From the NCBI GenBank assembly GCA_018238965.1, contig JABCSI010000002.1, positions 1 to 54,569 of the forward strand: a stretch of DNA of 54,569 nt. The letters run 5' to 3'. The translations under genes and the position numbers were made by a program. Positions 1,254 to 47,800 of the stretch are shown piece by piece (position 1 is the first letter of the stretch; every line of letters starts with the position of its first letter). This DNA is from Promethearchaeota archaeon. GTDB lineage: Archaea; Asgardarchaeota; Lokiarchaeia; Sigyniarchaeales; Promethearchaeaceae. The notes under the pieces were generated by a model that had not been told where the DNA came from, did no database searches, and saw only the letters and a list, made by a program, of their open reading frames with translations.

Positions 1254-2762
1254 TTAAATGAAAATAACAATGTTTTTGGTGATAAAAAATATTAAGATGA
1301 AAATTTGAAAGAATATGAGATCTTCTTTTCTGAAGAAAGATAAAGTTGTTATCCGGTTGAAGGAAATAAAAACAATAATAACAAAATACGTGGAATTAAA
1401 TAGAATAACCCATAAACTTGTTGTGTTTCCTGAAAATTCAAAGAAATATGAAAAATTCCCGAAATCTGTTGAAATAGTTTTTAAAATTTCTTGAAACATA
1501 AAAATGAATGGACTTATTATCCCAATCGTAATAGAACTTACAAATTTGAACACTTTTGATTTCTTTGCCATATCGTCAGTAATGATTTGTCTTCGATTGT
1601 CAAGAGTTCTGTGTTTTTGGAAAATTTCATAAACAGATTTAAAATAATCAGCTCCTCTTTGGCTGTTTCTCTTCAATATCTGAAAAAAAGAATTGGATAA
1701 AACTCTTACAGGGCGAGTGTATTGATCAGATTGAAACAAATTAAATACTTCTTCCATGGGATTGATGGATTCATATATTTTAACTAAATCCTTCTTAGTG
1801 AAGTAGTTTAATTCATTGTTATCTAATGCTTTAATAATGGCAAACTCGGGTGAATTAAATTGAAGATGAAAGCAAAATTGTTTCAAAAAATCGATGAAAA
1901 GCTCAATTCCATATATATTTTTGGTAGATCTTTTTTGCATAATTATCGCTGGATATTCGAGTTCCCATCGAAATATCATAAATATTTGTATTAATAAGAA
2001 GATAAGTAAGAAGGTCATTTTATCCAATAATCCATTCAGATAGAATATGTTAGAGAATAGATATAGAATTGGATAAAAGAGAGTTGTAAATGTAAACAAT
2101 TGCAATTTTAAATCAAGAGATTGAAGATAATTTTCAAAATCCAAATTTAACTCCTTTTCAAATACATTCGTCCATTGGTTAATTAAATGAATATTACCCG
2201 TTTCAATAATCCTATTATATGATTTTTCAAAATTGGGCAAATAATAATGTATTTTTTTTAAAGATATGAGTATATTTCCCCCCAATAATACATCTAGAAG
2301 ACTTTCCGAAATGTTTTTCCCTATTGTAGGCATATTATGTAAAAAATCAAGGATATGGGAATATGTATTGTCATAAATACTTGATTTCTTTTGAAGAATT
2401 TCAAGATTTAATAAAAAGACACGGTAATAATCAATATTTCTTATTGTTTCTTGTTTGATTTGATATTCTATCAAATTATTTAAAAGAAATTGCAAAATTA
2501 AAACAAGAAGTGTCAATAAAATAAATATACTTAGTTTTTTTCCTGAAATTATGAAGAGAATAATGAACATAATTATTGTGGGAAATATAATTGCCAAATT
2601 ACATTTTACAATCTGGTTACGTGAAAGATGATATAAATTTTGAATTGCATCGGAATTCTTAAATATTCTCCCTCTTTTTTTACCAAAAGTATACTTTGAA
2701 TCAAATTTTTGACACAAAATTAAATAAATTCGAAAAATTACGTTCATTTTACCTTGCTGCAT
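1254..2762 (-). CDS. TadC/ArlJ-like pilus platform membrane protein (T2SS F family)
   Basis: Probable inner platform protein of a type IV filament machine, the membrane partner of the secretion ATPase encoded two genes upstream. The 502-residue product has the layout of a double T2SSF protein: paired hydrophobic segments at about 55-90 and 220-270, two cytoplasmic helical blocks (about 95-215 and 290-400) and paired segments at the C-terminus (about 410-430, 455-500). Sequence identity to known families is not obvious by eye, so the call rests on topology, length and operon position. Start could be M1 or M6; AAGGTA lies just before M6. It is the last gene of the pilus operon, 11 bp after the 142-residue gene. 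Confidence 0.7.
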   Translation of the reverse strand: MQQGKMNVIFRIYLILCQKFDSKYTFGKKRGRIFKNSDAIQNLYHLSRNQIVKCNLAIIFPTIIMFIILFIISGKKLSIFILLTLLVLILQFLLNNLIEYQIKQETIRNIDYYRVFLLNLEILQKKSSIYDNTYSHILDFLHNMPTIGKNISESLLDVLLGGNILISLKKIHYYLPNFEKSYNRIIETGNIHLINQWTNVFEKELNLDFENYLQSLDLKLQLFTFTTLFYPILYLFSNIFYLNGLLDKMTFLLIFLLIQIFMIFRWELEYPAIIMQKRSTKNIYGIELFIDFLKQFCFHLQFNSPEFAIIKALDNNELNYFTKKDLVKIYESINPMEEVFNLFQSDQYTRPVRVLSNSFFQILKRNSQRGADYFKSVYEIFQKHRTLDNRRQIITDDMAKKSKVFKFVSSITIGIISPFIFMFQEILKTISTDFGNFSYFFEFSGNTTSLWVILFNSTYFVIIVFISFNRITTLSFFRKEDLIFFQIFILIFFITKNIVIFI

Positions 2763-2773
2763 ATATTTTATCT

Positions 2774-3202
2774 TCAGAAAAATTTAATAAATCTCGAATT
2801 ATTTTCAATCCCGATATTATATCCTTGAACATAAGATTTCAAACCATAAATTTGAAAAAATTCTACTAACACAATTTCCCGATGATAATATATTGTGAAA
2901 TTTTTGTTATGACAAAAAATTGATAAAATTTGGGTGGAATTCTCAAAAAAACTAATTATTTTTCCTTGAAAGTTAAATTGGATGCTAATATTTTCAAAGC
3001 TTGAATATTCCAAAGAATGATTTGAGATTTCATTAATATTCTGTTCCAAGAAATTAATATCTTGAACAATAATGTTGTTTTCAGAACTAACTCGCTGGAA
3101 ATTTTGGATTGTAGCAAAAAATGGTGTGAATAATGGGAAAATCAACACAAACCCAATAAAACTGACCATCATTAATAGTGTTTTTTCAAGAATTTCACTC
3201 AT
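2774..3202 (-). CDS. Small pseudopilin-like membrane protein
   Basis: Not recognised as a named family. The 142-residue protein has one strongly hydrophobic helix starting almost at the N-terminus (residues 7-32), preceded by an acidic MSEILEK, and then a polar, beta-rich extracellular-type region. This is the architecture of minor pilins, TadE/F-type pseudopilins and ArlF/G proteins. It sits between the secretion ATPase and the platform protein, with gaps of 6 and 11 bp, so a structural role in the same machine is inferred. A classical class III peptidase cleavage site (G or A before a hydrophobic stretch with E at +5) is not clear. Confidence 0.55.
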   Translation of the reverse strand: MSEILEKTLLMMVSFIGFVLIFPLFTPFFATIQNFQRVSSENNIIVQDINFLEQNINEISNHSLEYSSFENISIQFNFQGKIISFFENSTQILSIFCHNKNFTIYYHREIVLVEFFQIYGLKSYVQGYNIGIENNSRFIKFF

Positions 3203-3208
3203 CTTGAG

Positions 3209-5260
3209 TTAAATTGAAATTGAATTATTTATTTCCCGATATATTTTATTGATCAAGAGTAAATCCTTTAAATCAATGGATTTCCCATCTATTTTATTGA
3301 TCTTTTTATTCAGAAAATCCTTTAAAGTAATTAGTATCTTAGAAAGGGCTTCTTCTGAAAGAGAAATTAGGCCGTTAATTTCCTGAAATAGAGGAGATGA
3401 TAATAAATTATCAATTCTAATCCAATTCTTTGAAATAGGGCAATATTTGAACAAATTATTTATTTTAATCTCTTTAGTTTCCTGATTGGCTTGTAACTGA
3501 GAAATCGAATGAACAATTCTTCGATTTCCCCATTTTTTCATGAAAATTATAACTCCCAAATCATTTAAACATGAATGCCCAACTCCATAATGTAAAACCC
3601 AGCGGTTAATTAAACCATTTATTGTCGATGCATGAGTAGTTTGTAACCCTTTTAATCCCGTGCTTAGGCAGTGGAAAAGTGCTTGAGTTTCCATTTTACT
3701 TAAAATTTCCCCCAAAATTATATAGTCGCCTGATCTATGAAGTAATTTGTAAATTTCATCTTGCTTAGAATAATCATTGAACCGTTCAGGAGATACTTTA
3801 TATTTTAGCTGATGGGAATACAGTTGAGGTAACTCTAATGTCTCAATATTTTCTTCTAGATATATTTTCCGATAAAAATTAGGGACGTAAAGGTCTAAAG
3901 CATTTAAAAATGTCGTCTTTCCTGAATTTACTTCCCCAACGATGGTAATATTCATCTTGAAAAAAAGAATCAGAAGTAAAAATGACGCCATTTCTCCATT
4001 TAGAGTCTTTAATTCAATCAAATCTTTAAGTGTAAGAACATTTTTCTTCAAATTTCTGATATCTAACCCAAAATCTTGCCAATGGGACGGAAATATATCA
4101 ACACAGAAACGTGCATGAAAATAGGGATTATTATAAACATACGTGATATTGGGTTTTTCAATGTCAAGCCGCTCTCGACTATCCAAACATAAATGAGTTT
4201 TAATCGCCTCAACCTCCTCCAGAGATAATTGAATATAGCTTTCTACTTTTCCTAGATTTTGGTGGTTAAAATATAAGAAGCCATCTTTTTTATCCAGAAA
4301 AATTTCTTCTATGTTTGGATCTTGAAGAAAAACAAAAATTTTTTCAAAATGTAACCTTTTTACGGTTACAATATCCGCAATTTTATTTCGGTCTAATTCT
4401 TGAGTTTCAGGGAAATAACCCTTAAGAATTGCATTGAATTTCTGTGAAATTAATGTTATTTTATCTGCGAGGCTATATTGGGGTACAATACCCATTGTGG
4501 ATAATTTCTGGTTTAAAAGGTTTATATAACGGTCTATTTCATTTCTAGTAATCTCATCAATGTTATAATCAAAATCTATTATATATGAACCAGAAATCTC
4601 TTTTTGAGAGATGGATATGATATATCTTCCATTGAAAATGGGATATTTTAGGATTGGAATACGTTTTTCTATATCCTTGCCTTGATTTTCTTGACACTGA
4701 ATATTTTGGAATTTGGGATAGAGAGCATCAAGTGTGTTTAAATCCCACGAAAAAAGCGCATATTTTGACTCCAAGAATTTATTGAGAGTCGATTTCTTGA
4801 GTTCGCTATTTAATTTTACAAAATATTGTAGGATCTTCTCATTTTGCTTTTTTGGAATATTCGGGCTATTTTTGAGTAGGTTTTCAAAATTAGGGAGAAT
4901 TTTGTTGATTGATTCTGAAAATAGGGTGACAGAATATGGCCGATGGAAAAACCTCATTATTGGTTCGTTTGTTTCATAATTTCTCATTTTTTTTTTAAAT
5001 TTTTGATGATGTGATTGAAAAATCATGTATAAAGAATTCAATAATTCAATAATGTGAATTTCTTCTTGTTCCAAATAGAAATTTTGGCCACATTGAATAT
5101 GATAATAATTTTTTCCTTTATTTTCCAAAAAAATTTGAAGTATATACAAGATTAGTGATTTTTTTTTGCATTTTAATGCAATTTTATCTGGAATGTCTAG
5201 TCTATACTGCATATTTGAATTTGAAAATTTAGATTGCGAAATTTTATATGACTTACTCAT
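3209..5260 (-). CDS. Type II/IV secretion system ATPase (TadA/ArlI/GspE-2 family)
   Basis: Hexameric motor ATPase that would drive filament assembly or retraction at the cytoplasmic face. The C-terminal half holds the catalytic core: Walker A GEVNSGKT at about residue 440, a Walker B/Asp-box region DYIILGEIL at about 515, and the His box TTHAST at about 545. Residues 230-420 fit the N-terminal domain of archaeal GspE/ArlI proteins. At 683 residues it is longer than a typical TadA (about 450) or ArlI (about 550); the first 200 residues, rich in Lys, Asn and Ile, are unassigned and may be a docking domain. It follows the prepilin peptidase and precedes the pseudopilin-like gene in the operon. 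Confidence 0.88.
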   Translation of the reverse strand: MSKSYKISQSKFSNSNMQYRLDIPDKIALKCKKKSLILYILQIFLENKGKNYYHIQCGQNFYLEQEEIHIIELLNSLYMIFQSHHQKFKKKMRNYETNEPIMRFFHRPYSVTLFSESINKILPNFENLLKNSPNIPKKQNEKILQYFVKLNSELKKSTLNKFLESKYALFSWDLNTLDALYPKFQNIQCQENQGKDIEKRIPILKYPIFNGRYIISISQKEISGSYIIDFDYNIDEITRNEIDRYINLLNQKLSTMGIVPQYSLADKITLISQKFNAILKGYFPETQELDRNKIADIVTVKRLHFEKIFVFLQDPNIEEIFLDKKDGFLYFNHQNLGKVESYIQLSLEEVEAIKTHLCLDSRERLDIEKPNITYVYNNPYFHARFCVDIFPSHWQDFGLDIRNLKKNVLTLKDLIELKTLNGEMASFLLLILFFKMNITIVGEVNSGKTTFLNALDLYVPNFYRKIYLEENIETLELPQLYSHQLKYKVSPERFNDYSKQDEIYKLLHRSGDYIILGEILSKMETQALFHCLSTGLKGLQTTHASTINGLINRWVLHYGVGHSCLNDLGVIIFMKKWGNRRIVHSISQLQANQETKEIKINNLFKYCPISKNWIRIDNLLSSPLFQEINGLISLSEEALSKILITLKDFLNKKINKIDGKSIDLKDLLLINKIYREINNSISI

Positions 5261-5297
5261 CGTATTATCTTTTTCTTAATTAATAATAAAAGCGAAA

Positions 5298-5738
5298 TTA
5301 AAGTGCGATTGTTAAAATAATTGATACGAACATAATTGGAGCAAGTTTAATATTCTTTTTTTGATGCGTAATTCTACCGATTAGAAAGAAAACTAACACA
5401 ATGCATGAAAAAATTAGCAGAAAAATGCGACTTTCTTGGAAAAAAAATGGAACTGTTAGAAGATATAGAATCATTTTAAGATCTCCTGAACCAATTAATC
5501 CATGATTATACACATAAATAAAAATAGTCATCCATAATAATTTTTGAAAAACAGAGCCAAAATTCAACATCTCTTGACTTTGTGTCTTAAAATACAAATA
5601 TAAAATTAAATTAACAATTAATCCCGCAAGAACTATGAAATTATTTATTTTTTGAAATATTATGTCTTCGATACTGAATATTAGAAAGAAACATGATAAA
5701 ATCACATATATAATCGGAAATGGACACTGATTAATCAT
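5298..5738 (-). CDS. Prepilin peptidase (A24 family, TadV/CpaA/ArlK-like)
   Basis: Membrane aspartic protease that cleaves class III signal peptides of pilins. The two catalytic aspartates are visible: D25 in SIEDIIFQK and D86 in the GxGD motif (GSGDLKM). The 146-residue length with four or five hydrophobic segments matches the minimal TadV/CpaA type, without the N-methyltransferase domain of bacterial PilD. Its start overlaps the upstream winged-helix gene by 8 bp, indicating coupled translation. The most likely substrate is the Flp-like pilin at 7329-7535. Confidence 0.88.
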   Translation of the reverse strand: MINQCPFPIIYVILSCFFLIFSIEDIIFQKINNFIVLAGLIVNLILYLYFKTQSQEMLNFGSVFQKLLWMTIFIYVYNHGLIGSGDLKMILYLLTVPFFFQESRIFLLIFSCIVLVFFLIGRITHQKKNIKLAPIMFVSIILTIAL

Positions 5739-6024
5739 ATTCCTCCCAAAATTCTATGAGTTTTTTGATTGCATTTGCTTTAATATTCTCGTCCTTGAAC
5801 CGATATATCTTTATCCTTCCAAAACACTTTTCTTCAATAATATTAACCTTGTTAAGAAAATTAAGATGAATTTTAACGCTGCTATGGTTAAGACCTGTTA
5901 ATTTAACGATATTGGATATATTTGTTTCATTATTGATTGCCAAGATTTTAATGATTTTTGTTCTACCTTTGGAAGCAAAAATATCTTCGATATCAATCTT
6001 TGTTTGGTTTATTGCTGTTTGCAT
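5731..6024 (-). CDS. Winged-helix (ArsR-like) transcriptional regulator
   Basis: A 97-residue DNA-binding protein with a single wHTH domain. Residues 15-80 show the expected helix pattern: a KIIKILA helix, the turn and recognition helix region TNISNIVKLTGLNHSSVKIH, then a wing with IEEKCFGRIKIYRFK. There is no metal-binding Cys pair typical of metal-sensing ArsR proteins. It lies inside the pilus operon, 9 bp downstream of the Orc1/Cdc6-like gene and overlapping the peptidase gene, so it is a candidate autoregulator of pilus expression (inference). Confidence 0.8.
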   Translation of the reverse strand: MQTAINQTKIDIEDIFASKGRTKIIKILAINNETNISNIVKLTGLNHSSVKIHLNFLNKVNIIEEKCFGRIKIYRFKDENIKANAIKKLIEFWEEYD

Positions 6025-6033
6025 GATATTGTA

Positions 6034-7251
6034 TCACATCTCAGAATTAAAATCACGAATTTTTTTCTTTAATTCATTAAAAATCGAAAGAATAGGTAAA
6101 TCAGATAATGAAATATATGATTTTCTTCCACGAATATTTTTAGAAACCGTATTTACTGAAATCAACCTATATTTTTCAAATTGTTGAATATAACTCCAAA
6201 TTTGGGTATTTTTTCTGGGATCTTGCTGAAACTTAACACATAATTGATTATAAGTCTCTTTGATCTCTAAAAATGAAATATTTTGTTCTCCCTTATTTAT
6301 TATTATTTTTAAAATTGAATAGAAGAGAACAATTTGATGGTAATTTAAGATGTCAAAAATATCTGTTTGAATGTTTGGGATAACATTTTGCAATGCAATA
6401 TCGATTTCTTCCCTGTCAACATGATTTTTTTCCCTAGTTTCTGCGATTTTTGTAGCATTCCTAATGATATTCAAACCTTTGCGTATGTCCCCTGAAGCTT
6501 CAATATTGGCTGCAATATAATTGACCAATCCAGGTGAAATTACATCTTCTTTTAATGATATCTTAATTCTCTCAGATAAAATGTTTGAAATCTGTTCTTT
6601 AGTGTATTTTTTCAGAGAAAGAATATTCCCTTGAAGAGTACTCTTCGTAGAATCATCTAAACTTCCTAATAATGCAAGATTTCGGACTATTACAATTAGT
6701 GATAGATAATTTCTCTTATTTAGACTTGATTCATTACATCTACTTAAACTATAGATCAAATTGTAATGTGATTTCTGTAGATAGTTTAATTCATCCAAAG
6801 TCAAAACAAGATATATTTTAGATTTAATTAGGAATTCCTCCAAAAAAAATGTCAATTCTTGAGGAGAGTATCCTCTATTTGGAATATTACAAACCAATTC
6901 TGAAAGAATTCGATTTAATATGTTGTAAGGCGTTTTTTCCTTCCTGCAATTTATATGGATGTAGTGTATATTCAAGTTTCTCTTTTCGGCTGATAATAGA
7001 AGCATTTTGCCAAAAGTTTTTGCAATAACTGTTTTACCAATTCCGATTTCGCCTTGAATTGAAATTTTGCGTGATATTAGAAAGGGATCTTCTAATATTT
7101 TTACAAAAATTTTAGATAACATTATCAATTCTTGTTCTCTATGCAGTAAGATTTCAGGAATATAGTTAATCTCTAAATATTCTTCATGTAAAAACAAATT
7201 TTTTGAATATAGTTGTTCTTCCAAATAATTGATACTCATTTCAAAGACCAT
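6034..7251 (-). CDS. Orc1/Cdc6-family AAA+ ATPase
   Basis: A 405-residue member of the archaeal initiator family, found within a pilus operon. Walker A is GEIGIGKT (67-74); Walker B is LVLTLDEL with D153/E154; sensor 1 region is near residue 190; sensor 2 is GDIRKGL with R257. The region after about 305 aligns with the archaeal Cdc6 winged-helix domain. The segment that in replication initiators usually reads DPRVxSSL, with the arginine finger, reads DDSTKSTL here, so the trans-acting arginine appears to be absent. No origin recognition boxes were seen beside it. It may be a true initiator or a DNA-binding regulator of the operon; family membership is firm, role is open. ATG at M5 is an alternative start. 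Confidence 0.85.
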   Translation of the reverse strand: MVFEMSINYLEEQLYSKNLFLHEEYLEINYIPEILLHREQELIMLSKIFVKILEDPFLISRKISIQGEIGIGKTVIAKTFGKMLLLSAEKRNLNIHYIHINCRKEKTPYNILNRILSELVCNIPNRGYSPQELTFFLEEFLIKSKIYLVLTLDELNYLQKSHYNLIYSLSRCNESSLNKRNYLSLIVIVRNLALLGSLDDSTKSTLQGNILSLKKYTKEQISNILSERIKISLKEDVISPGLVNYIAANIEASGDIRKGLNIIRNATKIAETREKNHVDREEIDIALQNVIPNIQTDIFDILNYHQIVLFYSILKIIINKGEQNISFLEIKETYNQLCVKFQQDPRKNTQIWSYIQQFEKYRLISVNTVSKNIRGRKSYISLSDLPILSIFNELKKKIRDFNSEM

Positions 7252-7328
7252 GTGTTAACATTTTGTGTAAAATGAAAATTGTCGGAAGGCAGATAAAGAA
7301 AAATGGTTTAATGATTTACTTGATTTTT

Positions 7329-7535
7329 TTATAATTGTGTTAAAAATCCTGAAACTTCTTGAACTTGCTGCTCTATCCAATCATATATATTGGTGACAAT
7401 TCCTATAAGCATTAGAAATAGAATTAAAGACAACGCAATGAGTAATCCGGATTCAAGCATAGATCCTCCTGATTCGTCTATCCAGAATTTTTTTATCCAT
7501 CGTCCTAGTTTTTTTCCCAATTTCATACAGATCAA
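7329..7535 (-). CDS. Flp/Tad-like type IV pilin
   Basis: Candidate major pilin, 68 residues. A basic leader (MKLGKKLGRWIKKFW) is followed by DESGGSMLESG and a 20-residue hydrophobic helix (about 31-50), then a short polar tail. This matches bacterial Flp pilins, where the processing site reads DESGATAIEYG. Cleavage after G23 would place Glu28 at position +5 of the mature protein, the conserved glutamate of type IV pilins. The mature product would be only 45 residues. A prepilin peptidase and motor ATPase are encoded downstream in the same operon. M4 is an alternative start. Confidence 0.82.
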   Translation of the reverse strand: MICMKLGKKLGRWIKKFWIDESGGSMLESGLLIALSLILFLMLIGIVTNIYDWIEQQVQEVSGFLTQL

Positions 7536-7630
7536 AGATGATATCCATAATTATATATTAAAATCACGAAATTTTAATAAAAAAGGTTCACTTTATCAAA
7601 TGTTTAGGATTTAAAGATTTACGTTGTTAT

Positions 7631-7900
7631 TTAACAATGAGGAACCTCGTTTCTTGCTCTTGACCGAGGAAATGTAAGTGGTGAAAACCGAATCTTAGAA
7701 TAGAAACGACTTTGATTAAGTCTGAATAATGATTGCAAAGCATGAATGGCACTAATCAAATTGAAACGACTAAGATCCTCGAAGAAAGGGAATAAAAAGC
7801 TAAAAATTGTCAAGAATTTGCTTTTAGTGTCCCGAAAAGTCGGATATCTTATCAAAATATTGAACAAAAAAGCGGGTATTAAATCCATAAACATTTTCAA
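7631..7900 (-). CDS. Small hypothetical protein in pilus operon
   Basis: Open frame of 89 residues, not recognised. It begins with a moderately hydrophobic stretch (MKMFMDLIPAFLFNILI) and continues rich in Phe, Arg and Ser. The start codon overlaps the stop of the PKD-protein gene by four bases (ATGA), as in coupled operon genes, which is the main support. Against it, the C-terminal RSRARNEVPHC is unlike the Lys/Asn/Ile-rich proteins around it, so it may be a chance frame in a 360-bp gap. Confidence 0.35.
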   Translation of the reverse strand: MKMFMDLIPAFLFNILIRYPTFRDTKSKFLTIFSFLFPFFEDLSRFNLISAIHALQSLFRLNQSRFYSKIRFSPLTFPRSRARNEVPHC

Positions 7901-9975
7901 ACTGTAATTTTTTTTCCTCTTATTCTTTTTGTAGATTTTCTAATAATTTTAGTCTTCTTGAGATAAACTATAACGCCTACCAATATGGTGCTACCTAAAG
8001 ATGCTGATAATGGAAGGATGTTGCTTTTTGGTGCAGATGAAGAAAAATTTGCGGAAGATTGAATGTCCTTTTCGACCGTTATACAATTCTTGATGTAACA
8101 ATTATCTTCATCTCCATCCCAATCACGAATAGAAAGTCTCACAGAGTAAGACCCGTTTTGATTATATATGTGTGAAGGTTCTAAAACTGAGGAATTAGTT
8201 CCGTCTCCAAAATCCCAGAATATGAGAACAGGATCATTACCTAAATCTCCTAAGAATTGAAATTTCACAACATCTCCTTCAATGATTTTTGAATCATTAG
8301 CAGAAAATATCGCTGATGGTTTTAAATCGTAGTAAATCAATATATATGATGATTGAAATACTGTATCTGATTTACCTTGGTTATCAGTGATATTCAAACT
8401 AATTGAGAAACTCCCTTCTAACCAAAAAATATGCCTGGGATTTTTTTCTGTTGAATTATTGCCATCTCCAAAATCCCAATTGAAAAACAGATCAATTTCA
8501 TTTTCCGAAATTCCTGTGAAAAAAAATTGAATTGGATCTCCGACAGATCCGATTTGGGGTGTAGCATAAAAGTCTGCAAATATTGGACATGAAATATTGG
8601 CAGTATTTGAAGATGTTGGTGAAAATTCTTCATTTCCGGTGAATTCGAGATGAAATTGATAATATTCAACAATGACGAAATCAGATAATTCTTGGATGTC
8701 CCTCCACAATGCTTCCAATAATAAAGTCGAATTTGTCTCGAATTTCGTTAAATTATAATCAATTTTCAACCACTGACCACCCAAATTGATTTTTAACAGT
8801 AAATTTTCTGGATTCAGTGCCGAGACATTTGTTACATTAACTAAAAAAATTAAAGAGTTGAAATTTTTAAAAACTGGCTTATTTAACACAACGTTGAATG
8901 AATTGTGAATAATATTTAATGAAAAATTTCCAATATCCATTCTATAATTCTCAATCTCTCCCCATAATTCAATTGAATAATTTCCTATTGATTTGGGATT
9001 TTCAACTCTTATTTGGTAGTCATTGCTTGATGGTTCTATCGAAATTATGTTCAAGTTAGAATGAAATTCCCAAAATATATTTGGGATAAGAATAGTTCGA
9101 TTTTTCGTATTCTTTAATTGAAATCTGAATTCCAGTTCAGAATCTAGCATATTTACACTCCATATGCTTGCGTTAAGAAATTCTATTTTCAATTCGGATT
9201 CTTCAATCGTTAAAAAATATATCATTTTCTTTGAATAAAATTTATGGGTTTCTCTTAAATCAAACTTAAGAATATAAATTCCAACAGCCATCTCCTCAAA
9301 TTCAGACAAATTTATTATAAAATCACCTGTCTCATTCAAATTTAGTAGATTTGAAGTATATAACACCTCTTGTGAACTAATTGAGTAGTTAATCACATTA
9401 TCATCATAATATATACCTGGTTTCTCGAGAGCCACCACTCTATTTGGAAGCTGGGTAGTAATTTCAAATTCAATGGGGAATTGAGTGAAATTGGAATATA
9501 ATGTTGGCATATACTTGGTGATTTGAATTATTTTTTCATACTTTTCAACATGAGAATTACTTGGTTCATTTTGAATATAAGTGAATATAACAAAGAGTAT
9601 CCAAACATTTAACGACTTAAAAGATTCTAAAAGATTTAAATTTGTAATATCGACTGCTATTTCAAAGAATTGATCTCCATTATCATCAGGTAAGTCAATT
9701 ACCAGGATCGAATTTGCAATGATCGAAGAAATCGCCAATAAGTCAGGATTTTCATCAATTAAAATTATTTTAACCCCAATATCATCATTGTCTGAAGAAT
9801 ATATATTCCAAGAAGCATTTAGATAAATTATTTCATCTACAAAATAGATATTCTTATCTGATTGAATTTGGGGGGTAGGTTCATTAATAAGAAACGCTTG
9901 CGAGGGCTTGAAGGAAAGCGTTAAAAATATCAATACAAATAAAATCATCCATATCTTATATCCCTTTTTCATCAA
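7897..9975 (-). CDS. Secreted, membrane-anchored PKD-domain protein
   Basis: Surface protein of 692 residues, first gene of the pilus operon. An N-terminal signal peptide (residues 6-28, hydrophobic, ending near SQA) is followed by several beta-sandwich-like repeats with many Asn-x-Ser/Thr sites. Two PKD domains carry the signature WDFGDG at about residues 501 and 588. A transmembrane helix at about 657-673 and a basic tail (KKTKIIRKSTKRIRGKK) anchor it in the membrane with the C-terminus inside. PKD domains commonly mediate adhesion, so a tip adhesin or cell-wall partner of the pilus is inferred from the operon. Confidence 0.85.
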   Translation of the reverse strand: MMKKGYKIWMILFVLIFLTLSFKPSQAFLINEPTPQIQSDKNIYFVDEIIYLNASWNIYSSDNDDIGVKIILIDENPDLLAISSIIANSILVIDLPDDNGDQFFEIAVDITNLNLLESFKSLNVWILFVIFTYIQNEPSNSHVEKYEKIIQITKYMPTLYSNFTQFPIEFEITTQLPNRVVALEKPGIYYDDNVINYSISSQEVLYTSNLLNLNETGDFIINLSEFEEMAVGIYILKFDLRETHKFYSKKMIYFLTIEESELKIEFLNASIWSVNMLDSELEFRFQLKNTKNRTILIPNIFWEFHSNLNIISIEPSSNDYQIRVENPKSIGNYSIELWGEIENYRMDIGNFSLNIIHNSFNVVLNKPVFKNFNSLIFLVNVTNVSALNPENLLLKINLGGQWLKIDYNLTKFETNSTLLLEALWRDIQELSDFVIVEYYQFHLEFTGNEEFSPTSSNTANISCPIFADFYATPQIGSVGDPIQFFFTGISENEIDLFFNWDFGDGNNSTEKNPRHIFWLEGSFSISLNITDNQGKSDTVFQSSYILIYYDLKPSAIFSANDSKIIEGDVVKFQFLGDLGNDPVLIFWDFGDGTNSSVLEPSHIYNQNGSYSVRLSIRDWDGDEDNCYIKNCITVEKDIQSSANFSSSAPKSNILPLSASLGSTILVGVIVYLKKTKIIRKSTKRIRGKKITV

Positions 9976-10771: not shown

Positions 10772-10844
10772 GCTTCCATAGTGTAGTGGTCAAGCATTTG
10801 AGGCCCTCACCCTCAGGACTCGGGTTCGAATCCCGGTGGAAGCA
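10772..10844 (+). tRNA. tRNA-Glu (anticodon CTC)
   Basis: A full cloverleaf can be read: acceptor 5' strand GCTTCCA (10772-10778) pairs with TGGAAGC (10837-10843), and the discriminator is A10844. The anticodon stem is TGAGG/CCTCA with loop CCCTCAC, giving anticodon CTC, which decodes GAG. The T arm has GGGTTCGAATCCC. No intron is seen and CCA is not encoded. It lies 27 bp after the ZNRD2-like gene and is probably co-transcribed with it. Confidence 0.95.
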
Positions 10845-12187: not shown

Positions 12188-13213
12188 TCAAAGGGAAAAA
12201 AAAGGCTTTAAAATTTTCACATAATGATCTCGAATTGAATATTCTGCCACTTTCATTGCTTTTGAAGCAAAATATTGAGTTAGAATGGCTTTTGTGTTAT
12301 TTTCTTTGGCTAACATCTTATCCGCACAATATGCAACTGCTGCTGCTAGTATGAACGGATTTCTCGAACCTCTCACCCTGTTATTCAACTTTTTTAAAAT
12401 AAACTCACTTTTTTTTGTTAATAAAAATCGATATTCTTCCTTGCTCCAAGTAGAACCTTTAATTTTCATTCTTCTAAGAACAGGGTCCGAATTAACAATT
12501 CCATCTATAAATCTTGGAATGAAATCTTCACTTCTATGTGGTTGTTTATTCTTTTTAATGATGTTTTGATATTTCATATTATCTCTAATTATTAATTTTG
12601 GATTAATCCGGTGTCCCAATATTGAAAAAACTTGACAAAGTTCTTTTAAACTTATTGGACACTTATCTTTATATTCTCTGGATGCTTGAAAAATGCAGTA
12701 GCCAATCAAAGAAACATGGTTGGTAATTGAAGGTGCTTTCTTTTTAATTTCATGGTATATATAAGCCGCCCGATTTCTAATTATAGGAGAAAGTGCCATA
12801 TATTCTACGATTTTTCCAAGGATTTTTAAAATTCTGTAATCTGTCTCACGGTTTTTAATTTTTGATGGAAGAGAATAATACTTTTTTAATTTTTTATATA
12901 ATTTCTGATATTTTGCAGAAACCATCTGTTTCTTATAGTCATAAAATCTAAATTTAGAAAAATAATCAATATGACTCCCTAATGTACAAACACTATCAAC
13001 AGTCTTTCCTATTGAGACAAATTGAGTACCAGAATTGATTTGGATTCCATCATTATCATTCATCTGATAACTATTTGATAAACAAAGGGAATTAATAACT
13101 AATCCACATTTTTCACAAACTTGTTCAAAACCATTTGAAATAATTTTCCCAGTACATTCAGGACATTTGTTTAAATAAACTAATTCAGAACCATTTGAAT
13201 TCTGTGCCAACAT
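12188..13213 (-). CDS. tfb: Transcription initiation factor B (TFB), divergent paralogue
   Basis: General transcription factor bridging TBP-DNA and RNA polymerase. The N-terminal zinc ribbon has C17/C20 and C33/C36 (CPEC, CEKCGLVI). Two cyclin-like repeats follow: about 120-215 (IVEYMALSPIIRNRAAYIYHE) and about 225-335 (RGSRNPFILAAAVAYCADKML). The linker/B-reader region is Asn- and Gly-rich and differs from the usual TFB sequence, and the first cyclin fold is weakly conserved, so this looks like a specialised paralogue. Lys-rich composition is in line with its AT-rich neighbourhood. Confidence 0.85.
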   Translation of the reverse strand: MLAQNSNGSELVYLNKCPECTGKIISNGFEQVCEKCGLVINSLCLSNSYQMNDNDGIQINSGTQFVSIGKTVDSVCTLGSHIDYFSKFRFYDYKKQMVSAKYQKLYKKLKKYYSLPSKIKNRETDYRILKILGKIVEYMALSPIIRNRAAYIYHEIKKKAPSITNHVSLIGYCIFQASREYKDKCPISLKELCQVFSILGHRINPKLIIRDNMKYQNIIKKNKQPHRSEDFIPRFIDGIVNSDPVLRRMKIKGSTWSKEEYRFLLTKKSEFILKKLNNRVRGSRNPFILAAAVAYCADKMLAKENNTKAILTQYFASKAMKVAEYSIRDHYVKILKPFFSL

Positions 13214-15280: not shown

Positions 15281-15853
15281 TTATTTTACCAAAATTGTGG
15301 GAAATATAAGTTCAAGCATTTTTTTAAAAGAATCTAGAATACCAGCATCGTTTATTGCTACCGTGGGAATAATTTCTATTTTATTATGCTTTTCTAACTC
15401 AAAAGGTGCTATTATATCATCAATTGATATAACATCGGAAAGATCTCTCTTATTTAAGCAAATTGAAATTGGAATTTTTTGAAAATTATCTTCTAAATAA
15501 AACTTCAATTCATTCCAAGAATTTAAGTTATCATAAAAAAATTGCTTCTGAGAATCTATGACAAATATTATACCATCTAACCCAGTAAGCGTAGATGGGC
15601 GTGTAGCTGCATAGAAATCTTGACCAGTGGCGGTATATAAAGAAATTTTGACCATCCAATCTCCTCCTTTTAATTGTAAGGTTCCGAAGTCAAAAAATAA
15701 GGTTCTCCCTGTAGTTGTCTCTATTGAAGTTAGAAGATCTTCCCGATTAAACTTTTTAAACAGGCTTTTTAGACTTGTTGTCTTTCCAGACATAGCACAC
15801 CCGTAATATACAATTTTTATTTGAATTTCTTTATTTTTGTAGTTGATTATCAT
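15281..15853 (-). CDS. MglA-like small GTPase
   Basis: Ras-superfamily GTPase of the MglA type. Counting from the upstream GTG at 15865: G1/P-loop GCAMSGKT (22-29), switch I TTTGRTLFFDF (50-60), G3 region YTATGQDFY (77-85), and G4 NKRD (138-141). The RTLFFDF block and replacement of the usual DxxGQ Asp by a Thr are hallmarks of MglA rather than Rab/Arf proteins. No C-terminal prenylation Cys is present. The ATG at 15853 is chosen because a GGGG element precedes it and because it removes a 10-bp overlap with the upstream gene. It lies in an operon with a roadblock-domain protein, the known regulator type for MglA. Confidence 0.9.
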   Translation of the reverse strand: MIINYKNKEIQIKIVYYGCAMSGKTTSLKSLFKKFNREDLLTSIETTTGRTLFFDFGTLQLKGGDWMVKISLYTATGQDFYAATRPSTLTGLDGIIFVIDSQKQFFYDNLNSWNELKFYLEDNFQKIPISICLNKRDLSDVISIDDIIAPFELEKHNKIEIIPTVAINDAGILDSFKKMLELIFPTILVK

Positions 15854-15855
15854 AA

Positions 15856-16755
15856 TTATCCCCACAAACTTTCGAATGTATCAGAAAAATTCGAAGTTTC
15901 TTTGAAATTTAGTAATGAGAAAAAATCTTCTTTCCATTCACAGAAAATAAATTGTAAAATCCTTCCTATTGGCGCATTTTTATAGGCTATAGTAGAATAC
16001 AGAGTTTTTGGAGAAAGCTTAGTATCAATTTTAAATGACTCTAAAATTTTCATCCGATTCAATATATTTATGGATCTCTTGCAAGCGTTGAAAAAATTTA
16101 AGATTTCCTTTTTGATAATGTTTTCCTTAATTTCACCCTCTTCTTCATCAAAATTCATGATTGAGGTAATTTGATCCTTTGGAATTTTTTTAAATCGAGT
16201 ACGTTTTAACAAAACTCTTTTCATTTTTTCTATTTCAATTTCTGTTCGGCTAATTGCATTCTGATATATCCAACGTTCCAATGAAAGATCCAAATTCTGA
16301 AATTTTTTTCCAATTATTTCTGCCTTTAAACTGTCATTTTCGACTTCTAATTTCAAAAAGTACTCTGATTGTGTATAAATTTTATTATGTACTGAAATAA
16401 ATGAAGAATAATTTTGTTTGTTTATTAGAACTCCGATTATCCATGAATTAAAATTCTTAATTATATCCATAGCTTTCTGTGTTGTGTCAGGAAATGATAA
16501 AAAAATATTTCGTTCATTGTTTAAATCATAATCTTCATATTCTAATATCTGTGAATAATCCTCGTTATCTAGAAAATCTGAAAGAAATATTACTGTATTT
16601 CGGAATGGAACAAGAGAAATGAGTTCATTCATTAAATTTTCTATCACATTTTCTTGATCACTCAAAATTATAATTGGTATTCGGTCTAGAAGGCACCGAA
16701 TTAAGAGTGAGATATCTTCAATTTCAGAATTACAGAATCGCAGTATCAGGTCCAT
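15856..16755 (-). CDS. Hypothetical protein of GTPase/roadblock operon
   Basis: Not recognised. The 299-residue protein starts with an alternating strand-helix pattern (IPIIILSDQENVIENLMNEL, then RNTVIFLSDFL) that resembles a degenerate P-loop or receiver-like fold, but it has no Walker A motif. Residues 165-250 are strongly helical and charged, with an acidic stretch (DEEEGEIKEN). AGGTGA four bases before the ATG supports the start. It lies between the roadblock gene and the GTPase gene with 8-bp and 2-bp gaps, so it probably acts with them, for example as an effector or GEF/GAP-like partner (inference). Confidence 0.65.
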   Translation of the reverse strand: MDLILRFCNSEIEDISLLIRCLLDRIPIIILSDQENVIENLMNELISLVPFRNTVIFLSDFLDNEDYSQILEYEDYDLNNERNIFLSFPDTTQKAMDIIKNFNSWIIGVLINKQNYSSFISVHNKIYTQSEYFLKLEVENDSLKAEIIGKKFQNLDLSLERWIYQNAISRTEIEIEKMKRVLLKRTRFKKIPKDQITSIMNFDEEEGEIKENIIKKEILNFFNACKRSINILNRMKILESFKIDTKLSPKTLYSTIAYKNAPIGRILQFIFCEWKEDFFSLLNFKETSNFSDTFESLWG

Positions 16756-16763
16756 TTTATCAC

Positions 16764-17777
16764 CTATAAAATTAATTGACTAAATAAAGAATCTACTTTA
16801 ATTTCGGGTGTGATTTTCGTTGAGCTCTCTGATTCCATTAATATTTTTTCAATTTTTGTGCAATATTTAGGAATAATTAATCTAAGAAGGCCAAGCTTTT
16901 GTCTACCTTTTTCAATTGTTGTAGAAAATATCGAATTTCTTACTAAATTTATAAATTGGAATTCGTCGATACACTCTAGTAGAATCGATTTGATGTGCAT
17001 TTTTTTCAATAACCAAGCACATTTATCTGCAGTGAAGAATAAAGAATTACTCAATGTTGCCTCAACTTCAATTTGATTCAAATCCATGATTTGATGATTA
17101 AAATTACTAGAAAGAACAAATCCACCATCAAACGTAATATATGAACTAATTAAATCTAGGGTATTGCGTCCAAATTCTTCTAATACTCGATCTAAATCTA
17201 AGTACGTGTTTTGAGGAAGACATAATGAGAATAAAGATATCCTATCTTTTTTACCCTGATCTTCCTTCACGTCAATTGCATTTAATAATGTTTGAATTTC
17301 TTCTGGAGAATATTTCCGTTTGGGCGGTTTAAAGGATTCACCTGACAAAATTAAGCACTTCTTTATATTCATCAAACTCGTTCTAATTTTGAGAAAAATA
17401 CCTCCGAGATTTACATTTGATTTGGTTGTTATTGCAACGTAAAATTCATCATCAAATCCTTGTAAATTCTGTGCATCAATGATATTATTGATGGTTGAAG
17501 ATCCATAATTCCTTAAGGGTGTGATCAAAATTTTCGCTTTTTTTCCCTCGATCAAAATATATTTCATTTTATCATGATGTAAGCTTATCCCACAATTATA
17601 TATTGCAGAAGTGGCTGCTGATATACTAAATAGTTCATTCTTCGAGAGCCAAATACCGCTATGTTGGATGGGATTACCGTCCCTTTGGGTCAGCACTACA
17701 TTTTCAACGCCTTTAGTAGTCCTTATCATATCTAAATATTTTTTAACTTCGATTGTAAGTGAAATCTCTTTTCTCAC
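16764..17777 (-). CDS. Roadblock/LC7-domain protein (two domains)
   Basis: Probable GTPase regulator. The first 130 residues fit the roadblock/LC7 (MglB) fold: helix KKYLDMIRTTKGVENVV, the strand pair around LTQRDGNPIQHSG, helix NELFSISAATSAIYNCG, then strands MKYILIEGKKAKILITPL and DEFYVAITTKSNVNLG. A weaker second copy is suggested in residues 185-310 (LDLISSYITFDGGFVLSSN, LFFTADKCAWLLKKM, KLGLLRLIIP). The start codon is GTG. It is the first gene of a four-gene operon that contains an MglA-like GTPase. Roadblock/GTPase pairs control motility polarity in bacteria and lysosomal signalling in eukaryotes. Confidence 0.78.
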   Translation of the reverse strand: MRKEISLTIEVKKYLDMIRTTKGVENVVLTQRDGNPIQHSGIWLSKNELFSISAATSAIYNCGISLHHDKMKYILIEGKKAKILITPLRNYGSSTINNIIDAQNLQGFDDEFYVAITTKSNVNLGGIFLKIRTSLMNIKKCLILSGESFKPPKRKYSPEEIQTLLNAIDVKEDQGKKDRISLFSLCLPQNTYLDLDRVLEEFGRNTLDLISSYITFDGGFVLSSNFNHQIMDLNQIEVEATLSNSLFFTADKCAWLLKKMHIKSILLECIDEFQFINLVRNSIFSTTIEKGRQKLGLLRLIIPKYCTKIEKILMESESSTKITPEIKVDSLFSQLIL

Positions 17778-18308: not shown

Positions 18309-19806
<1,498 letters not shown>

Positions 19807-41886: not shown

Positions 41887-44800
41887 ATGAAAAAAAATCG
41901 GAAGTTAATTGCCGTCCTGCTGGTGGGGTGCATAATTTTGCAAGCCATCGCTCTTGGGGCTGCTGGGACGGGGGCATTTTCCAATGTCGATCCCTATGTT
42001 GATCAAGATCCATCTGAAATCGAGGAGACAACACATGAGTCAATTTCTTCTCATTATTCACCCTATTCCTTCCCGGTAACCGAGCAAACGTCGCTTTTTA
42101 CTGAGATGGATGCTGATTCTGAGCAAGAAATTACATCTACTGAACCGCAATCTGCATATTGGTGGGATACTGACTTCGCCTTGACTATAAATTTAGAAAA
42201 ATACGCCTATACGGTCGAAGAGGATATCAATATTGAATTTCATGTGTCAAATAATTTCACAGCGGTGGCCAATCATGCGATTTATGTGAAAGTATACGCG
42301 GGTTATTGGCGTGATTGGTATGATTATTATGGATATTATTACAGTTATGATGAAGCTGAATATACATTAATGGAAGAAGTCGTTGTGTATACAATGAGTG
42401 ACGGGCACGCTGTTCTGAGCCTCACAGATACCTATGCCGAAGGAATGTATACTATATTTGCCACAGACAACAATATGGAGGTTTACAAAGAGTTTACAGT
42501 TGGAAACGAGGGTATTTTCGTAAAATCGCCCCGTTATTATCGAGCTGGCCAGAATTTCCGAGCAGGTATTCACTTGGTCGATTTACCTGACTTTTCACCT
42601 CTGTCACTTGCTGAGTTTACTTATTCCATTTCCTACTATGATTGGAATAATGGCGAGTGGAATACATCTATCACAGGCGACGGATCAGTTGATGCAAATG
42701 GATATTCCTTCCTTGAATTTTATATCCCTGAGGAATTGGAAGACAAATACTACCTTAAACTGGAAGTACAGATTTTTGGATCCGAAGCCGAATTTTCAAT
42801 GAACCTTTATCAGTCTTGGGATTACTATTACTACAGCCTCTGGGGAGGAGAGCAAGCAACTGCTAGCCAAAATATCCAATATGTGGTCACCACCGATAAA
42901 ACAATTTATAGTCTGGGAGAAACAATTCATATCCGGGCGATGGTGTTGGAATACTCCTTCATGAATGAAACAAAATCTCCCTTAATTAATACCCCCATTC
43001 AGGTGGTGGTTAATAATCCCGATGAGTTTGCTGTTTATTGGGTGGAAATATTGACGGATAATAGTGGAATCTTGACATTTGACTTTCCAATTGCGTTGGA
43101 TACTGATATTGGAACCTATAGTATTCAATTTAGGTACGGAGAAAATTCCTATTCTTACCCTGTTAAAGTGCAGTATTATGAAAAGCCAGTTTTCAGAGTA
43201 GAGATTGACACATTTGGAAAAATGTTCTTTCCTGATAATCATGATCAAATAATTGGTCCTGATACCTTCTTCACAGGTGATATCGTGGCTGAATATTATT
43301 TCGGGCAAAATGTAATTGGTGCCACCGTTGATATTGAAATTCTCACGTACTGGGATGAAATTGTATATAGTGAAACGGGAATCACCGATAGTGAAGGACG
43401 GTACCATTTTAATGTTAATTTGGACGATCTTTCAGATCTTTATTATTCCTTTACCGCCCATGCGGTGGTCACCGATGAATACGGGCGAACTGCTGAAATA
43501 TCTCAGAGATTTACCCGCATCGAGGAAACTTATCTTTGGGGATATGTTCGACCATGGGCTCCCGAACCAGGTGACATGATTGATTACTACTTTTATGCCT
43601 ATCAATTCTTAATGGGAACCGGGGGTTATTATTGGAATTACGAATATAATCCTCTCTCTAATGTGACTGTGAATATTAACGTATATGGAATTCATTCTTT
43701 TCTTCTAGATGAATCGATTTTACGAACTAAACAGTATATCACATCCCACACAGGTGTAACAAATGATTTTGGTTCAGGTTCGCTTCAATTTCAGCTGGAT
43801 TCGGCAACCACTGCAGCATATGATTATTTTCAGATCGAAATCACGATGGAACTGGAGGATGGACGATCAGCGACTTCTCAATCCTATTTCCGATATAAAA
43901 AATATAGTCTTTCGGTAGAATTGGACAAAACTACCTATCAACGTGGTGATACAGTTGAAATTATCGCCACTTATGAGGATATTGTAGCAGGTGCCATGGT
44001 TGAAGGGCAGGGGAAACTCTATATTTATGATTCGTCCTATCAGTTAGTTGGAAAATCAACTATGCTATATGACGGCGAAGAACATATTTCCTTTGCTCTC
44101 TCAGATTATGCGAAAGAGGGTACCTACTATTTGTATTCCTATGTCACTTCCGAGAGCAATTCCTATTATGGAGGTTATACCTATCATTCGGCCTATGTTA
44201 GATTTGAGGTTGGTGAGAGTTATGAAATTGATATCGACACAAATATATCAACTACCGATACCCAAGGGCGCCGGTATTTGGTTCAATCGGGTGATTCGGT
44301 TGAGATCAGCGGTATATCTAACGTTCCTAGTAACAACTATCATTATCTCGAAATATATAAAAGAGGATTACTATATTCTACACCTTTGGAGCTAATTGAT
44401 GGTGCTTTTTCATATACTATCGAAGTTGATGATTTGTTGGCTCCAGATTTTACCGTGTTTGTGTATACAATCTCCGATTCCGGAAAAATAATTGAAAACT
44501 ACCTTGTATTTCAAGTTGAGGTTGAAAGCGGGTTCACATTAAGTACAGATAAAGAAATGTATGAGCCCGGGGATACAATCACGTTAACCATTACTCCCAC
44601 TTCGGACAGTCCTACGTTGGTCGCTTTATCCTTTATCGATAGTGCTGTTTTGGATGTGGAACCTGAAGACGATTCCGAGTTAGCCTACTTTAGTTCCTAT
44701 AATTATGCTGCTTACTTGCAATCATCAAGCTCTTGGGGTGTGGGCTATGATGGATCCAATTATTGGTGGATAGGATATGGTTCTCCTAATGGATTTTGGT

Positions 44801-47800
44801 ATTGGCCCTACTTTGATTACGGAAATAGGTGGGCAGAAGATGTTGCATATGACGGAGATACTGAATTGGACGGTGACGCCCCAGGAGGTGATCAATCTAA
44901 TTCCCTCGATGGAGGAAGTATGGATTTCGCTGGCTTAGCTTTCGCTTTTGAAACCGAAATCCGAAAAAATATCAGCGAATCAGCCAATTGGGTTCCCAAG
45001 ATGTGGATCACCGGAGCTACGAATTTTACGTTCAAACTCCCCGATAATATTGGAGAATGGACTATCCGGGTTGTGGGCACTGGATTAAGTCAAGAAGGTC
45101 CCAGCAGTGTTTTATGGGGTGATATTCAAACAATTCCAATTAAGAGTTTTCTTCCGTTCTTTGTAGAATATGAAATCAACGGGCCTGTGGTTCAAGATGA
45201 CATAATTTCGTTGAAAGCCTATATTTATAATTATTTAGGAACAGATGTGATTGCCTATGTAGCTATAGATGCTCCGGGGATGGTCGTGCTCAACAATGAA
45301 GTCCAAGAAGTTTTCGTACCCGATAACCATGTTTCTGAAGTAGAGTTTTCGGTATACTGCCGTGATCCCTTCAACCAAAACGTGACTATATTAGCGGCTG
45401 CAAATACAACCTCTGGACCATTTTCGGATGCTAAACTGATCACTACCTATATACATCCCAATGGGCTAGAAATATCTAATCGGGAAATTGGTTTTGTGAA
45501 TGCCGGCGATCCCTTTACTTTGGATTATTATATCGATGAGGATGCCATTTATCATCAAGAAAGGTTAGCAATATACAGTGATCTAATGGATATTTCATTG
45601 GATAGCTGGCAATCCTTGATTGGATACCCCTATGGATGCATTGAGCAAACAATCTCGAAGCTTTTACCCAGTGTGCTGATATATCAATATTTACAGGTGA
45701 CGGACCAATTAACACCTGATTTGGAATTCCAAATTCAACAAATCGTTGCCCAAGGTCTAAGTCGAATCTATGCCATGCAACACACTGATGGAGGGTGGGG
45801 TTGGTGGGAGGAGGATGAGTCTCGATTGTACATGACATCAATTGTCCTTTCGGCACTGGTAGAAATTGATAATGCAGGGTTTTATATCAATGAATATCAC
45901 TTTTCGAATGGATTAACACGGCTATTAAATCAACAGGAGCTAGATGGTTCTTGGAGTCTGGCTTCCTATTACGGAGACACATCTTTCGAAGCGACGGCAT
46001 ATATCGTCCAATTACTGATGAACCAAGACATTGCGGACGTTGAAATTAGTTCTAAAATTGCCTTGGCTGTGTCATATCTTAAAACCGATTGGCAAGATGT
46101 CGCCTATCGGGGATCCTATGGTGCCGCTTTAATGTTCTTAGCTATCCATGATACAATTTATGAAGATGTAGCTCTTGAAGCAGAGTTAATCACCTACTTG
46201 TTGGAAAATAAACAAGTAGGGGTGGACGAAAACTTCTGGACCTTTGAATCAGATGAGAATTGGTACTGGGGTTATTTCGGAGGAACTGTTGAAATTACTG
46301 CCAACGTAATCATGGCTTTGGTCGCCGATGACTACATTACACATTACCCAATTCTCCAGAAAGCGACTCAATTTTTGCTCAATCGAAAAGATAACTACGG
46401 TTGGTGGTCCACTGCGGACACGTCTGCCGCAATCCGGGCACTCATAGACCTAAAAACGGCTACCGTGGTTAACGAAACTATTGAATTTAATGGAACAATT
46501 GAGGTCTTGCTTAATGGAGAAGAGGTGCCATATGCCACCTTAGATTATTCGACCGAGGGAATTCCTCCCGAAATTCAACTTCGACTCGATGCGGGTTTAG
46601 AAATTGGTGCGAATTCTATTTCATTGAATTCTACCGGTGAAGGACAGTTTGTATACATCTTTGAATCCACACAAATAATTCGCATTGAGCCAACTATTGA
46701 TGTTAGCGATGTTATTCCTGTATCCGTCGATACCGCATTCAATGTATCTGTGAATTTTTCGGATGTAGATGCATGGTATTCATTGGAAAACATCTATATT
46801 GAGATTGATGAACTTAATTCAGAGTTCGTGTTATCGGCAGATGGCTCTCCCACAATTATCCAAAATCAAGCTGTGACAGGCGATTCTGCACAGTTCGACT
46901 TAGAAGTCATTGCCCCGGGAACTCAAGGCTCATATTCGTTAGGAAATCTTAAAATTTCCGGAGATGTGGTTTATCACCATCCTACAGAAAACACAACCAC
47001 ATATCAACATTTTCAAAAAGAAATTGGGCCTATCCAAGTAAATGTTGGAAACACACCTGGCGGAGCAAATACAGCTGATTTTATTGGTTTGACCTCTCCC
47101 CTTGCATCGTCTGGGTTGGAGGCTGGAGGTTCTGGTTTAATTGTTACCAAAGAAGGTATTTCCTTGCAAAAGACATATTCGAAGACCTCCCAGTTATTTG
47201 CAGGTGATGTGATAACGGTCTCGATCGATATTACGAATTTAGCTACCGGAAGACAATTTTATGCCTTGGATGATCTTATTCCCGCAGGAACAGAATATTT
47301 TCCGAATTCTCTATCGATTACATCGGAAGATGGTGGCGATTTTGAAGCGGATATAAGTGGATCTCGTCTCCATATTTATTTCCCCGATTTACCTGTCAAT
47401 AGTATTTCGATCTCCTATAAATTGCAGATTTTGGAAATCAAAAATTCATTCGTGGGTAGATGTGAACTGTGGGGGATGTATGATAAGTTTTCCTTAGAAT
47501 ATGGAATTAGTTCGTTGGAAAATATTCCCTTGCAATATTCTACCGATGCAATAATGTATCGTGACCTGGATAGGCCGGTGATCTCAGTACCAAAACTCAA
47601 AGATATAACCGATGATTCTCCGAAAATTCAAATATCATTGTCAGCAGAGGACGAAAATCCGCTCTACAAATATCGCATCTATTACAAGCAATTGAATCAA
47701 TGGCGAGTTCAAAAAGATTTCATTATGGGAAATGGGGAAAATGGAGTAAATCTTGAAATCATCTTGGAATCGCTTACAAATACAGATTCTGAGGTGGAAA

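Follow-up and report, generated by a model that had tools for sequence, protein, structure and literature searches.

The pilus locus and its genes

We analysed a 54,569-nucleotide stretch of DNA from a Promethearchaeota archaeon of the class Lokiarchaeia (assembly GCA_018238965.1, contig JABCSI010000002.1, positions 1 to 54,569; hereafter, the window), focusing on a type IV pilus locus at its positions 1254-9975 in which genes for an Orc1/Cdc6 protein and a small winged helix-turn-helix (wHTH) protein stand among the pilus genes. The source genome is 3.85 Mb in size and 87% complete, and the window is its contig 11. The genome belongs to the same genus as Ca. Harpocratesius repetitus FW102 (G001), which is its nearest relative in our comparison set. 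Since FW102 is a Lokiarchaeon (PMC8813620), the suggestion of an earlier sequence-only reading that the DNA probably came from an Asgard archaeon is supported. Closer comparisons covered 59 relatives and phylum-wide comparisons 228 Asgard genomes, the genomes compared being drafts or lacking species names. Families are labelled by number, with f1 being the family of the window (its loci include the window, L032, L033, L057 and L071). The features of the locus, mostly in the order in which they are read on the minus strand, are as follows:

7897-9972, minus strand: secreted PKD surface protein with a signal peptide and a C-terminal membrane anchor (PKD_4, 2e-28; open reading frame (ORF) 7897-9975, probable start ATG 9972)
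7607-7886, plus strand: predicted archaeal RNase P RNA gene (full-length match to RF00373, E = 2.2e-17, 64.2 bits against a gathering score of 84)
7329-7526, minus strand: Flp-like major pilin, 65 residues (alignment of relatives; probable start ATG 7526, TTG ORF from 7535)
7274-7286, minus strand: candidate cis element TCCGACAATTTTC in the Orc1 leader (exact match only there in the window; aligned in five f1 loci)
6034-7251, minus strand: Orc1/Cdc6 paralogue of a non-Orc1-1 lineage (Cdc6_C 4e-13, Cdc6_lid 5e-12; trees)
5731-6024, minus strand: ArsR-type wHTH protein, partner of Orc1 (HTH_5 7e-7; 8-nt overlap with the peptidase gene)
5298-5738, minus strand: prepilin peptidase with a GSGD motif, 146 residues (Peptidase_A24, PF01478, 3e-5, just under the cut-off)
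3209-5260, minus strand: type IV pilus assembly ATPase, 683 residues, with an N-terminal extension of ~220 residues (T2SSE, PF00437, 1e-10, above the cut-off)
2774-3202, minus strand: pilin-like (pseudopilin) protein, 142 residues (no leader past the Met, E at +5 and a long N-terminal helix in an alignment of 17 relatives)
1254-2762, minus strand: membrane platform protein, fused TadC-like and TadB-like, 502 residues (two T2SSF-type halves; conserved in 39 loci)
12188-13213, minus strand: TFIIB-like protein (Zn_Ribbon_TF 0.0075 in the window protein; its relative in L146 matches TFIIB)

The sequence-only reading had placed nine genes in a single operon. Its coordinates for the eight protein-coding genes are borne out by the ORFs, and its component set (ATPase, peptidase, pilin, pilin-like protein, platform, Orc1, wHTH and PKD proteins) by ORFs, Pfam matches and homologues; the ninth gene and the continuity from the PKD gene to the pilin are not. 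From Orc1 through the platform gene, neighbours overlap or are separated by 6-37 nt, which fits the expectation for an operon. In f1 loci, the genes for Orc1, wHTH, peptidase, ATPase, pilin-like protein and platform all lie on the same strand (in the window, L032, L033 and L057, and in L071 up to the contig end). The order of ATPase, pilin-like and platform genes is conserved across most of the taxonomic order, and f1 and f4 alike have the peptidase gene immediately after the wHTH gene, frequently with an overlap. The pilin gene has a TATA-like sequence within its own short leader.

The supposed ninth gene, an 89-residue ORF at 7631-7900 on the minus strand, was rejected as a conserved small protein: stops break its frame in relatives, and the RNase P RNA match lies opposite. 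The DNA of this region is 75-80% identical among relatives, and the RNase P RNA match recurs in L032 and L057 (80.0 bits in the latter). Considering the E-value, the full-length match and the conservation, 7607-7886 is very probably an archaeal RNase P RNA gene. Relative to the RF00373 family, the window copy is full-length and conserved, yet it scores below the gathering threshold and lies antisense within a run of pilus genes. This opposite-strand gene breaks the minus-strand run between the PKD and pilin genes, so that the PKD protein is probably transcribed from a unit of its own. Related surface proteins occupy its position in many loci, and the PKD protein is a likely candidate adhesin. 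The FW102 counterpart (L032 14230-19998) has 1922+ residues and many near-identical PKD repeats.

Identification of the secretion ATPase stands, with profile matches to AfGspE of Archaeoglobus (2e-40), FlaI (1e-29) and CpaF (6e-17) in addition to T2SSE. It is the sole T2SSE-family match in its 87% complete genome. The ATPase family is present in 42 of the 59 relatives and in 187 of the 228 genomes across the phylum; our ATPase tree included three reference sequences only. The length of 683 residues had been considered unusual. It is ordinary among the protein's own relatives, which have 683-751 residues in Lokiarchaeia and some other groups and 455-584 elsewhere. A first scan of the genome contigs with a single ATPase sequence gave no match. 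In L031 and L060 (G058:C5) the ATPase gene carries several in-frame stops, and an intact second copy is found elsewhere in the same genome.

For the peptidase, the proposed catalytic residues D25 and D86 (of GxGD), together with K88, are invariant in an alignment of 15 relatives, and the protein of relative L036 reaches Peptidase_A24 with 6e-8. In many f4 members (L035-L061) GxGD is replaced by GxAD or GxSD, and in L049, L050, L059, L061 and L067 the peptidase gene is split into two ORFs. The small Flp-like pilin is likewise upheld. Its Flp_Fap match is weak (E=0.08 only); the alignment of 11 sequences displays a class III-type leader, a predicted G/G cleavage site and a hydrophobic helix, with E28 of the 'G/GSMLE' motif invariant in all 11. 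The structure model of the 142-residue pilin-like protein has a helix at 2-38 followed by strands, with overall low confidence.

The 502-residue platform protein itself has no Pfam match, T2SSF (PF00482) included. In other Asgard families, two adjacent proteins occupy the platform position and align to halves 1-276 and 277-507 of the fused profile, and some of these split homologues match T2SSF (3e-7, 2e-5 and 2e-3). The AlphaFold model is all-helical, with a predicted local distance difference test (pLDDT) score of 81, and a Foldseek search of it against the PDB returned no significant match. The protein thus appears to be a T2SSF-type platform, as proposed earlier, and of fused TadC-TadB-like form, with T2SSF reached through the split homologues and not by the protein directly. 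The two outcomes named beforehand as speaking against the locus, the lack of a conserved order elsewhere and of a T2SSF match for the 502-residue protein, did not occur, since the gene order is kept in other Asgard genomes and T2SSF is reached via the platform homologues.

The identities of the genes, their order, conservation and linkage are direct observations; the assembly steps are drawn from homology. The peptidase would cleave the basic leader off the Flp-like pilin, and the 142-residue pilin-like protein may assist the start of assembly. The ATPase ring would then turn or reshape the fused TadC-TadB platform, driving pilins out across the single membrane, with the PKD protein as a likely adhesin at the surface or the tip.

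The Orc1-wHTH pair and its linkage to the pilus

The sequence-only reading had also recognised an Orc1/Cdc6 homologue and a wHTH regulator in the middle of the locus, and the Cdc6_C, Cdc6_lid and HTH_5 matches listed above confirm an Orc1/Cdc6 and a winged-helix protein. The window Orc1 has an AAA+ domain with intact Walker A and B motifs, a lid and a C-terminal winged helix, and matches PDB entry 1fnn with 1e-68. In the Orc1 tree, a branch with 100/100 support unites the Orc1-1 proteins of Sulfolobus and Aeropyrum with the other Asgard paralogue, the canonical one. Judging by this placement, the pilus-type Orc1 is not of the Orc1-1 initiator lineage. In all eight genomes examined, the canonical Orc1-1 gene is separated from the pilus by no less than 89 kb or sits on a different contig. 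The wHTH gene follows Orc1 in 46 of 47 pilus-type Orc1 genes, overlapping it or starting within 15 nt in 41. The two are also the best conserved proteins, with a mean column identity of ~60% for each, versus ~40% for the platform.

The new point is that this pair is linked to the pilus ATPase across the Asgard phylum. The pilus-type Orc1 and the pilus ATPase are both among the matches listed for 128 genomes; a distance of at most 20 kb separates them in 96 of these, or in 96 of the 101 that carry the two on one contig. The linkage covers at least nine families, with orientation and intervening genes varying among them. These counts do not represent independent events, since the phylum listings favour best matches and related genomes. 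Most of the other Asgard families typically have a member of the TFIIB-like family (cluster k3, 20 loci) beside the ATPase gene. In the literature searched, we found no published account of the present Asgard pilus or of an Orc1/Cdc6 gene in any pilus locus, and the 2016 census of archaeal pili (PMC4858521) mentions neither Cdc6 nor Loki; the earlier remark that the regulator block is not part of known loci therefore holds within that literature. The linkage hints at a possible control of Asgard pili by an Orc1 protein.

A co-occurrence of ATPase and Orc1 in f4 (41 genomes with both, 2 with the ATPase only, 0 with Orc1 only and 22 with neither, p ~2e-15) was discarded as an assembly artefact: 12 of 12 tested genomes having neither were also without ribosomal L3 and S17e, that is, the whole region is missing from those records.

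Second pilus loci are present in three Lokiarchaeal genomes (G058, G010 and G056), where pilus genes are combined with a HerA-like ATPase and a pilus-type Orc1. A HerA/VirB4-like ATPase of ~900 residues adjoins pilus genes at L070 4340-7033 (with a C-terminal zinc ribbon), L068 4250-6973 and L064 15232-17856; it has no sequence match in the PDB. The region of the G010 second locus (L097 3842-19093) encodes a reverse transcriptase, a DUF2604 ubiquitin-like protein and a JAB-domain protein near the pilus-type Orc1.

Elsewhere in the window there are a tRNA gene (10772-10844) and a complete archaeal 16S rRNA gene (18310-19805). Positions 15281-17777 encode a small Ras/Arf-like GTPase, a 299-residue protein and a Roadblock protein, a trio conserved in the Asgard supercluster that recalls the MglA/MglB polarity control of bacterial pili. 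A 2054-residue secreted protein at 41887-48051 gives the impression, by sequence, of being alpha-2-macroglobulin-like.

Possible roles of the Orc1-wHTH pair

In the explanation that we favour, Orc1 and the winged-helix protein would regulate the pilus genes, acting as an ATP-controlled transcription switch in the way that Orc1-2 acts for the Saccharolobus Ups pilus. Regulation is the least certain part of our proposal. It is plausible in view of a precedent in Saccharolobus: Orc1-2 of S. islandicus, which is not an initiator, shows ATP-dependent binding to the upsE promoter, binds its own promoter as well, and after DNA damage activates the pilus genes ups (upsA), the DNA-import genes ced (cedA1) and tfb3 (PMC9738581). 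The TFIIB-like neighbour of the ATPase in most other families and the second loci with Orc1 and a HerA-like ATPase also speak for regulation. It is unproven because the region is at the same time a housekeeping supercluster, in which the neighbours include genes for ribosomal proteins (L3-L4-L23-L2), RNase P RNA, RFC, FtsZ and TruA and in some cases 16S and signal recognition particle RNA. The linkage may therefore be positional. Several other observations weigh against regulation too. The Orc1-wHTH pair persists away from the pilus in L155 and L162; in f13-f15 and f20 there is no linkage between Orc1 and the pilus ATPase, and the f20 Orc1 gene is arranged head to head with a further Orc1 gene; and we found no motif common to the Orc1, pilin and ATPase leaders. 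The TCCGACAAWTTTC element was rejected as a regulon motif, being exact only ahead of Orc1, with looser matches at chance level. Setting the precedent and the linkage against the housekeeping neighbours, the unlinked cases and the lack of a shared motif, we give regulation about an even chance.

The main alternative, only slightly less probable, accepts the same minimal pilus and treats Orc1-wHTH as a replication module, in which an initiator of a second lineage is accompanied by a small DNA-binding protein. The module would reside in the old supercluster and have become co-transcribed with pilus genes in the family of the window. The housekeeping neighbours and the unlinked families suit this explanation, as do the association of the wHTH with Orc1 in loci with and without a nearby pilus and the initiator-type domains that Orc1 retains. 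In FW102, moreover, the GC skew (guanine versus cytosine) changes sign at ~0.33-0.55 Mb, as sampled every 218 kb; at this coarse sampling the change does not coincide with the locus at 0.705 Mb, although the two are close and share a part of the chromosome. In G174 the skew sampling was too noisy to read. On the other hand, the linkage also holds in families that have no ribosomal genes in the surrounding 20 kb (L143, L145-L148 and L151-L153), and neither classical origin-recognition box (ORB) patterns nor local ORB-like repeats were found near the pilus Orc1. No strong switch of the skew was seen in its vicinity. The non-Orc1-1 proteins of Sulfolobales also include a known transcription regulator. 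Taken together, these points leave the replication module with a probability somewhat short of even.

A third explanation would make the pilus, the TFIIB-like gene, Orc1 and the HerA/VirB4-like ATPase of the second loci parts of an Ups/Ced-like apparatus for intercellular DNA exchange, with Orc1 as a damage-responsive activator or a mobile-element initiator. The gene content of the second loci and the Sulfolobales precedent favour it, and so does the branching of the second-locus ATPases and the G010 Orc1 inside chromosomal Lokiarchaeal forms. Nonetheless, we regard it as improbable, as the pilus locus of the window showed no HerA-like gene, no relaxase or nuclease was identified, and viral contigs scanned with the ATPase alignment gave no match.

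If regulation by the Orc1 pair is true, the command of pilus genes by Orc1 in Saccharolobus would be a general and old archaeal trait, testable in cultured Lokiarchaea. One may speculate further that control of a type IV pilus by a dedicated Orc1/Cdc6 and winged-helix switch, with a TFIIB-like factor, is ancestral in Asgard archaea and physically wired into the locus, so that pilus assembly responds to DNA damage or to the state of replication. On this view, the Orc1-2/TFB3/Ups link of Saccharolobus would represent a single offshoot of a more ancient archaeal scheme. This wider proposal is tentative, and on balance we doubt it.

Comparison with known systems

The locus holds the hallmarks of the type IV filament superfamily, namely a T2SSE ATPase, a T2SSF-type platform (via homologues), a GxGD peptidase and a class III-type pilin leader. 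As far as its genes tell, it is a minimal archaeal type IV pilus locus with some Tad-like features and not a Tad or Epd system, in which the TadC and TadB platform halves have been described (Denise et al. 2019, PMC6668835). The earlier assignment to a Tad/Epd type is unsupported in the strict sense of that study. The locus shares with Tad/Epd-like pili a very short Flp-like pilin, but the two contiguous platform genes of those systems, with a single T2SSF domain each, have a split counterpart only in other Asgard families, whereas the window carries one fused platform gene; the ATPase profile is nearer to AfGspE and FlaI than to CpaF; and we noticed no TadZ/FlaH-type gene in the ORFs of this locus and of related loci, although the genome was not searched with a dedicated profile. 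That the platform is fused in Lokiarchaeia and split in other Asgard families bears on the origin of the Tad/Epd platform split.

The likeness to archaeal type IV pili (Makarova et al. 2016, PMC4858521) extends to the single secretion ATPase, the platform of two T2SSF halves, the peptidase, the short pilin, the surface protein and the TFIIB-like neighbour, TFIIB homologues being common in archaeal pilus loci. In contrast to those pili, the window operon holds Orc1/Cdc6 and an ArsR-type winged helix, its ATPase has a long N-terminal extension, and its platform is too divergent for direct detection by Pfam. A functional parallel may be the Saccharolobus Orc1-2/TFB3/Ups/Ced regulon (PMC9738581), which likewise combines a non-Orc1-1 Orc1, a TFIIB paralogue, a type IV pilus and a HerA-like ATPase, the last found on the Asgard side in the second loci. 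The Asgard system differs from this regulon in that its parts are physically clustered and its Orc1 is coupled to a small wHTH protein.

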